Shown: piece by piece, positions 20,170 through 21,709 of the stretch
Position numbering within the stretch: position 1 is the first letter of the stretch
How the letters are laid out: each line of letters begins with the position of its first letter
Origin: Verrucomicrobiota bacterium
GTDB taxonomy: Bacteria > Verrucomicrobiota > Verrucomicrobiia > Opitutales > UBA953
DNA length: 64,000 bases
Assembly: GCA_026397955.1 (NCBI GenBank)
Contig: JAPLTV010000065.1
Coordinates: forward strand, 1 to 64,000
Direction of reading: 5' to 3'
Position numbers and translations under genes: made by a program
Notes under the pieces: generated by a model
Told to the model about the DNA's origin: nothing
Database searches by the model: none
The model's input: the letters and a program-made list of their open reading frames with translations, nothing else

Positions 20170-20260
20170 AACTTGTTTATTAACCGTTCTCGCTCCGGGA
20201 CAAGCGGGGATATGATGGGACCTGTTGACCTTTGAGGTTAGCACCTCTCCCCTTCACGCA

Positions 20261-21316
20261 ATGGCCCGAGTCCAAGCCGTCACCTTCGACCTAGCAGGCA
20301 CCCTGCTCTTCCCGCATCCATCGGTCGGCGCCGTGTATGCGGCTTGCGCGAAACGACATGGGGTCGACGTCGAAGCCGCCGTCCTTGAAGCCTCTTTCCC
20401 GCTGGCTTTCAAAGGCGGCCCGAAGAACGCCAAGCCGGAAGTCTTCTGGAAGGAAGTCGTGCAACGTTGTTTCGGCCCGGCCCTCCCGTCCTCCAAGATC
20501 GACCTCGTCTTCCGGGAATGCTGGCAAGCCTTTGAGCGTCCGGAATCGTGGCGTCTCGCCCCTGGTTCACTGCAGGCAATCTCCGCCATCCGCTTCCTCG
20601 GCGTGAAGGTCGGCGTGCTATCCAATGCCGACGCCCGCATGCGCAAGGTCCTCGATGGTCATGGCCTGACGCGACACCTCGACGGCATCTTCCTATCCGA
20701 AGAAACCGGCAATTCAAAGCCCGACGCCAAAGCCTTTGCTCAGGCCGCGCGTGCCTTAGGCGGATCGGTCTCTGGCCTGGTGCATTTCGGAGACAGCCCG
20801 ACGGAAGACGGCGAAGGCGCACGCGATGCCGGCGCCACCGGCGTGGTCGTCGGCGGTGCGCATGCACCTGACCGCTGCCTCCGTAACGAGAAGATCTCCG
20901 AGGCCCCTTACGCGATCCGCGCCCTGCTCACTGAAGGTAAACTCAAGGGGAAGTTCTCGCGGACCGTCCAGAACCTCCTAGCCAACCTCCGCGGCCTACC
21001 CGAAGACCGTGGCCGCTCCACCGACCGCGCGATGAAGACAATCGACGATGCCGTGCAGGACGCCTTTAAGAAACTCCGCCTCGATAAACCCGTACCAGAG
21101 ACCGCCATCGTGGCGCACTGGCTCGAGCTACTTCCGCTCAAGCTGGCCAAACGTTCGGCTCCGCTCCGAGTCCTCGAAGGCGGGAAGCTCGTCGTCCAGT
21201 GCGAGAACTCCGTCATTAAGTCGGAGATCCGCTTCCACGAACGGGCGATGCTGGCCAAGATTCGGCTCCTACGTGGCTGCCAGGAAGTCCGTTCGATCAG
21301 CTTCGTGAACGCCTGA
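20261..21316 (+). CDS. HAD-family hydrolase fused to C-terminal DciA/DUF721-like domain
   Basis: HAD motif I-like FDLAGTLLF, motif II-like VGVLSNAD, KPDAKAF, HFGDSPTEDGEGARDAGATGV; C-terminal IVAHWLELLPLKLAKRSAPLRVLEGGKLVVQCENSVIKSEIRFHERAMLAKI...VRSISFVNA resembles DciA (W-I/L-G...L..HS.P...G.L.V....W..EL......L). Confidence 0.78.
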   Translation: MARVQAVTFDLAGTLLFPHPSVGAVYAACAKRHGVDVEAAVLEASFPLAFKGGPKNAKPEVFWKEVVQRCFGPALPSSKIDLVFRECWQAFERPESWRLAPGSLQAISAIRFLGVKVGVLSNADARMRKVLDGHGLTRHLDGIFLSEETGNSKPDAKAFAQAARALGGSVSGLVHFGDSPTEDGEGARDAGATGVVVGGAHAPDRCLRNEKISEAPYAIRALLTEGKLKGKFSRTVQNLLANLRGLPEDRGRSTDRAMKTIDDAVQDAFKKLRLDKPVPETAIVAHWLELLPLKLAKRSAPLRVLEGGKLVVQCENSVIKSEIRFHERAMLAKIRLLRGCQEVRSISFVNA

Positions 21317-21709
21317 TCAGTTCGACTTCGGCTCGTAGGGCTTCTGGAACACGTCCTTGAAGTCATAGACGTCCTTGAAGTCCTCAAGGTTGTCTTCCGG
21401 CGAACGGCCGAAGAGGCCAGTGTCGATAATGTTGAAGACGATGTTGCCGACGTCGGCCGACTTCCGGAGGCCCCAGTTGTGCAGCAAGGGATACGACATG
21501 GGACCGTAGGTCTCGATTACGTGCTGACGAAAGCCTTCGAGTAGCTGCGGACCACTGACGTGCCGGTTTGTAGTGCTCTTGCCTTTCTTCGGCTCGCCGT
21601 GCGTGAGCTTCTGCGCGAGGTCAAGCCCGAGGCGGACCACGTCATAAGCCTGCGGCTGGTAACGGGGGTCCTTCAGACGGATAATGCGGACAGCTTCGTC
21701 GAAATCCAT
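21317..21709 (-). CDS. Minf_1886-like conserved protein
   Basis: 130 aa, MDFDEAVRIIRLKDPRYQPQAYDVVRLGLD...RHVSGPQLLEGFRQHVIETYGPMSYPLLHNWGLRKSADVGNIVFNII. Confidence 0.8.
   Translation of the reverse strand: MDFDEAVRIIRLKDPRYQPQAYDVVRLGLDLAQKLTHGEPKKGKSTTNRHVSGPQLLEGFRQHVIETYGPMSYPLLHNWGLRKSADVGNIVFNIIDTGLFGRSPEDNLEDFKDVYDFKDVFQKPYEPKSN

Follow-up and report, generated by a model that had tools for sequence, protein, structure and literature searches.

The window, a 64,000-nucleotide stretch of Verrucomicrobiota DNA, contains a gene that places a HAD phosphatase-like domain and a DciA/DUF721 domain on one polypeptide. This raises the question of how an enzyme came to be attached to a helicase loader, and whether its activity matters for loading. 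The first-pass annotation suggested either a coupling of phosphatase activity to loading or a lineage-specific domain accretion, and suspected from motif I that the HAD part was altered and might serve as a binding or scaffold domain. A literature search, with the DciA-architecture survey of Blaine et al. (2022, J. Bacteriol.) outside its scope, found no paper on a HAD-DciA fusion, and an earlier notice of one is possible.

One reading frame and its two domains

The gene (20261..21316, + strand, as for all features below unless noted) is a single unbroken frame from ATG 20261 to TGA 21316. The uninterrupted ORF and the motif strings reported in the first-pass annotation were borne out, and its length of about 352 aa is corrected to 351 aa plus a stop. 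We favored ATG 20261 over an upstream TTG at 20225 because the Met encoded at 20261 was aligned in 33/33 distinct relatives. The window genome is a draft of 2.45 Mb in 126 contigs, 93.6% complete. A search of all 2.45 Mb found one DciA, the fusion gene, and no second DciA, so the fusion stands in place of a stand-alone protein. The genome has one DnaB, and a family search of the same draft found no clear DnaC/DnaI. The single match above the DnaC-type cut-off was a 512-aa frame that we infer from its size to be DnaA, accompanied by one weak match below the cut-off. The fusion protein is the only candidate DnaB loader of its genome, with loading itself predicted from sequence. Convergent with the fusion gene is a gene for a 130-aa protein (21317-21709, - strand), which had no match in a Pfam search and is conserved within the window's genus, with 72% identity in G019.

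Both Pfam families, PF00702 and PF05258, were matched above their cut-offs, and each half was also recognized when scanned separately, confirming the proposed HAD-DciA fusion. An AlphaFold2 model built from an alignment with 67 relatives had a mean pLDDT of 88 and a pTM of 0.64. Values were high in the HAD domain (~1-224; mostly above 90) and the DciA domain (~277-350) and about 50-70 in the joint (residues 225-276), and the model had no confident packing of one half against the other.

The HAD domain occupies residues 1-224 (20261..20932) and is REG-2/HDHD3-like by profiles and model, with a helical cap between motifs I and II. Residues 5-191 matched PF00702 (Hydrolase) at 74 bits (cut-off 26.4). 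The best NCBIfam match was TIGR02252 (DREG-2) over residues 5-195, where both the whole protein (136.8 bits) and the domain (138.7 bits) scored below the curated cut-off of 155.2 bits; several stand-alone HADs in the order likewise fell below it. On sequence grounds we classify the domain as REG-2-like and not as a formal TIGR02252 member. Human HDHD3 (3k1z) was the nearest solved structure by sequence and ranked first in Foldseek with the whole model (TM-score 0.77 by target length).

Motif I, DLAGT (20288..20302), contains the nucleophile D10 and T14, with A12 replacing the second Asp. Motif II is SNAD (S121-D124, 20621..20632; S, N, and D invariant), motif III is KPD (K153, 20717..20725; K and P invariant), and motif IV is HFGDSPTED (20783..20809; H175, G177, D178, and D183 invariant). 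D10, T14, S121, N122, D124, K153, D178, and D183 were invariant in 33/33 fused proteins from genera g1-g3. DLAGT had been taken as a sign of an altered HAD, a reading that does not hold: the second Asp was absent from 48/48 REG-2-type HADs sampled in the order, fused and unfused, so its absence was not caused by the fusion, and the aligned motif I of human HDHD3 (DVKDT) also lacks it. The window protein thus has the motifs of REG-2/HDHD3 HADs, and differs from them in its attachment to DciA, its TIGR02252 score, and the dead, cap-less HADs of one subclade of genus g201. In the window's genus the conserved catalytic residues suggest that the HAD half is probably still an enzyme. Among intact fused proteins the median dN/dS was 0.096 for the HAD and 0.030 for the DciA domain, both rough values because synonymous sites are partly saturated. 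In family f8, the stand-alone HADs (L100-L103, L107) had GN in place of GD in motif IV (GNSxxND) with the gene kept near dciA, and may have lost metal binding.

The DciA/DUF721 KH-like domain spans residues 261-348 (21041..21304) by profile and fold, with 49.2 bits to PF05258 (cut-off 24). When the DciA half was modeled alone, the best Foldseek matches were solved DciA structures, 7ykm from D. radiodurans (E 3e-4) and then 8a3v from V. cholerae (E 8e-4), and a profile search also matched 7ykm (E 2e-6), which bears out the expected KH-like fold. Upstream is a conserved N-terminal motif, KFSRTVQNLLANLRGLPEDR (residues 231-250, 20951..21010; helix 234-243), with which the stand-alone DciA proteins of the order begin and in which R234, L239, A241, G245, and P247 are invariant among the fused proteins. 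The protein terminates 3 residues past the DciA domain with no C-terminal helicase-binding tail, and stand-alone relatives in the order also stop right after the domain. DciA of V. cholerae and C. crescentus bind the helicase via C-terminal helices (PMC9912922, PMC12547741), which form a hairpin in VcDciA (PMC9912922, PMC9865707), and the N-terminal extension of C. crescentus DciA binds ssDNA and aids translocation (PMC12547741). Some DciA consist of the KH-like fold only (PMC9912922), and we therefore did not use the missing helices against DciA membership. The fusion shares its KH-like domain with the DciA of V. cholerae, D. radiodurans, and C. crescentus, and is likewise the sole loader candidate in a genome with one DnaB. 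Unlike these proteins it has a folded HAD at the N-terminus instead of a disordered extension, and unlike VcDciA it ends without the C-terminal hairpin.

Distribution and origin of the fusion

HAD and DciA shared one frame in 10/10 genomes sampled from the window's GTDB family. Across the 79 family genomes examined, from 5 genera, a fused-protein profile matched 78, a few of these being weak matches to other HADs only. PF05258 matched in 67, and the frame was at least 300 aa in 64 of those 67, the remaining 3 being cut by contig ends; the fusion is thus conserved in related genomes. It was found in all genera of the family, and the fused HADs formed one clade (support 99/94). The genes flanking it in the window (nadB, hisC, and others) were common to the nearest relatives only, and elsewhere the fusion sits in varied surroundings. 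At the level of the order, 123/132 sampled genomes had a DciA match, nearly always single and in a small frame. With fusion across the window's family and separate genes elsewhere in the order, the suggestion of lineage-specific domain accretion stands.

Two assemblies each had two distinct full-length fused copies, G417 (C29, C10) and BS8 (L036, L055). The BS8 copies had 95% and 65% identity to the window's protein and represent paralogues or a mixed bin. We rejected a candidate second fusion, a 394-aa frame of G056 in family f22, because its N-terminal 300 residues matched no family and look like a reading frame left open by chance in GC-rich sequence. Other long DciA frames from the phylum search (e.g. 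G271, G275, G314, G373) had no REG-2 HAD match. Genus g104 in family f45 had no DciA match in the fairly complete genomes G146, G154, G168, G171, G186, G200, and G265, and may have a strongly diverged DciA or use a different loader.

Outside the window's family, dciA was immediately preceded by a REG-2 HAD gene of the same strand in families f5, f8, f15, f18, f20, and f21, and by one at a distance of 1.3 kb in f3. The dciA start overlapped the HAD stop by 4 nt at four loci (L092, L094, L097, and L099; read directly from sequence for L099 and L092), and the gap was 14-18 nt in L090, L091, and L096. Surroundings of the pair vary between families while the pair stays linked. In many families of the order the HAD was elsewhere in the genome or there was no clear HAD, and a search across the phylum found no HAD-dciA linkage outside the order. 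In eight of the order's families (L098, L099, L111, L117, L119-L121, and others), dciA was followed at a distance of 1-4 kb by a pnp-like (polyribonucleotide nucleotidyltransferase) gene, which was not found adjoining the fused gene.

The stand-alone pairs and the fusion have related parts in the same order and on the same strand, and the paired genes often overlap, but those genes make two proteins while the window's family has lost the intervening stop. By alignment, the inferred fusion point is G230 (GGG, 20948..20950), which is aligned to the Met with which stand-alone DciA starts (M-K-FSR...). The stand-alone N-terminus, M-x-FSRxxxNLIANLRGLPED, corresponds to fusion residues 230-249, which places the junction with the HAD almost exactly on the former dciA start codon. 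No internal start codon at the junction was conserved across the family, and purifying selection acts across it. Because the separate genes are often adjacent, with 4-nt overlaps at four loci, the fusion appears to be a coupled pair minus a stop codon. The simplest account would be a single fusion at the family's root, when a translationally coupled gene pair became one chain by losing the stop codon of the HAD gene.

Loss of the HAD active site in genus g201

Within genus g201 of the same family, G398, G399, and G401 retain nearly all catalytic residues. Four other species (G393, G394, G397, and G400; loci L125-L128) have lost the active site: D10 is replaced by R/N/N/G, K153 is lost, and the metal Asp, D178, is G/T/V/A. 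Their cap is also gone, motifs I and II being separated by 39-63 residues instead of 111-126. These four form one derived group inside g201 (88/86 in a tree of the remaining parts). We found no other close REG-2 HAD in their genomes, and their DciA halves were still recognized by the family's own profile. The HAD active site is therefore not needed for the required role of the fusion. For the same reason a coupling of phosphatase activity to loading, as the first-pass annotation had proposed, cannot be a general requirement, and could operate in most of the family.

Decay of these remnants was uneven. Residues 173-224 (20777..20932), the C-terminal part of the HAD core, were strongly conserved even where the HAD is dead, with 65% identity among the four proteins, equal to the level among intact species, vs 35% for the rest of the HAD core and 43% for the DciA domain. 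In the dead group, pN/pS was 0.32 in residues 173-224, compared with 0.70 in the remaining core and 0.54 in the DciA domain. With four draft MAGs (75-94% complete) and a pS of about 0.7, near saturation of synonymous sites, the case for co-option is suggestive. These patterns suggest that selection maintains the DciA-adjacent core segment for a reason other than catalysis. Alternatively, the segment could be conserved because the remnant must fold, with no part in loading. A binding or scaffold role had been argued from motif I, an argument that fails, and now draws support from the conserved dead remnant.

Explanations for a loader made with a HAD

We consider it fairly probable that the sole DciA-type DnaB loader is produced as the C-terminal half of a fusion with a HAD whose core has been partly co-opted. 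In the window's genus, the HAD with its full subfamily catalytic set would probably remain an active phosphohydrolase of small molecules, working independently of helicase loading. DnaB loading would fall to the DciA half, acting as other DciA proteins do. It would use the KH-like domain and the N-terminal FSRxxxNLLAxLRGLP helix, as the C-terminal helicase-binding tail is absent. With the protein ending so soon after the domain, it must contact the helicase through another region, and the foremost candidate is the invariant N-terminal motif together with the HAD segment that abuts it. This HAD segment, the C-terminal part of the core, may now serve the loader as a structural extension, which would explain its survival after loss of the active site and cap. 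More tentatively, the 4-nt overlap, the obligate fusion, the loss of cap and active site, and the kept core segment may be steps by which a metabolic HAD is turning into a non-catalytic part of the loader, a history that we regard as possible and somewhat short of even.

An unlikely but still plausible alternative is that a neutral operon fusion placed two unrelated housekeeping proteins on one chain with no functional link. The 4-nt overlaps would require just a small change, and intact species constrain the HAD less than DciA. The HAD could then decay and not easily be removed, because dciA would depend on the promoter and start site of the HAD gene, and the derived g201 subclade did lose the enzyme without replacement while retaining the fusion. 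Neutrality fits poorly with the uneven decay of the remnants (65% identity in residues 173-224 vs 35% in the rest of the core) and with the maintenance of the HAD-dciA pair in several families despite differing surroundings. We think it improbable that the HAD gates loading metabolically, by binding or hydrolyzing a (nucleotide-like) phosphate metabolite and so coupling helicase loading to cell state. The catalytic set is invariant through genera g1, g2, and g3 and the two genes are adjacent in several families of the order, which speaks for such gating, but the four g201 species keep the fusion with active site and cap lost, and in many families of the order the HAD is elsewhere or not clearly present. 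An assembly or annotation artefact merging two genes might be suspected in a draft of 126 contigs; it is refuted by the recurrence of the fusion in dozens of independent assemblies from five genera, in different gene surroundings, and by the purifying selection that spans the junction, and we give it virtually no weight.

DciA forms with only the KH-like fold have been proposed to require an as yet unidentified partner (PMC9912922). In the case described here, a folded enzyme is attached to an essential-type loader throughout one family. If partial co-option is correct, the retained HAD segment may replace the helicase- or DNA-binding extension absent from this DciA, and the REG-2 HAD is a candidate partner for stand-alone DciA in the order. 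Separate overlapping genes, intact fusions, and dead fusions are all extant today, which makes the record of this fusion's origin unusually complete and provides a comparative set for defining which part of the extension DciA needs.
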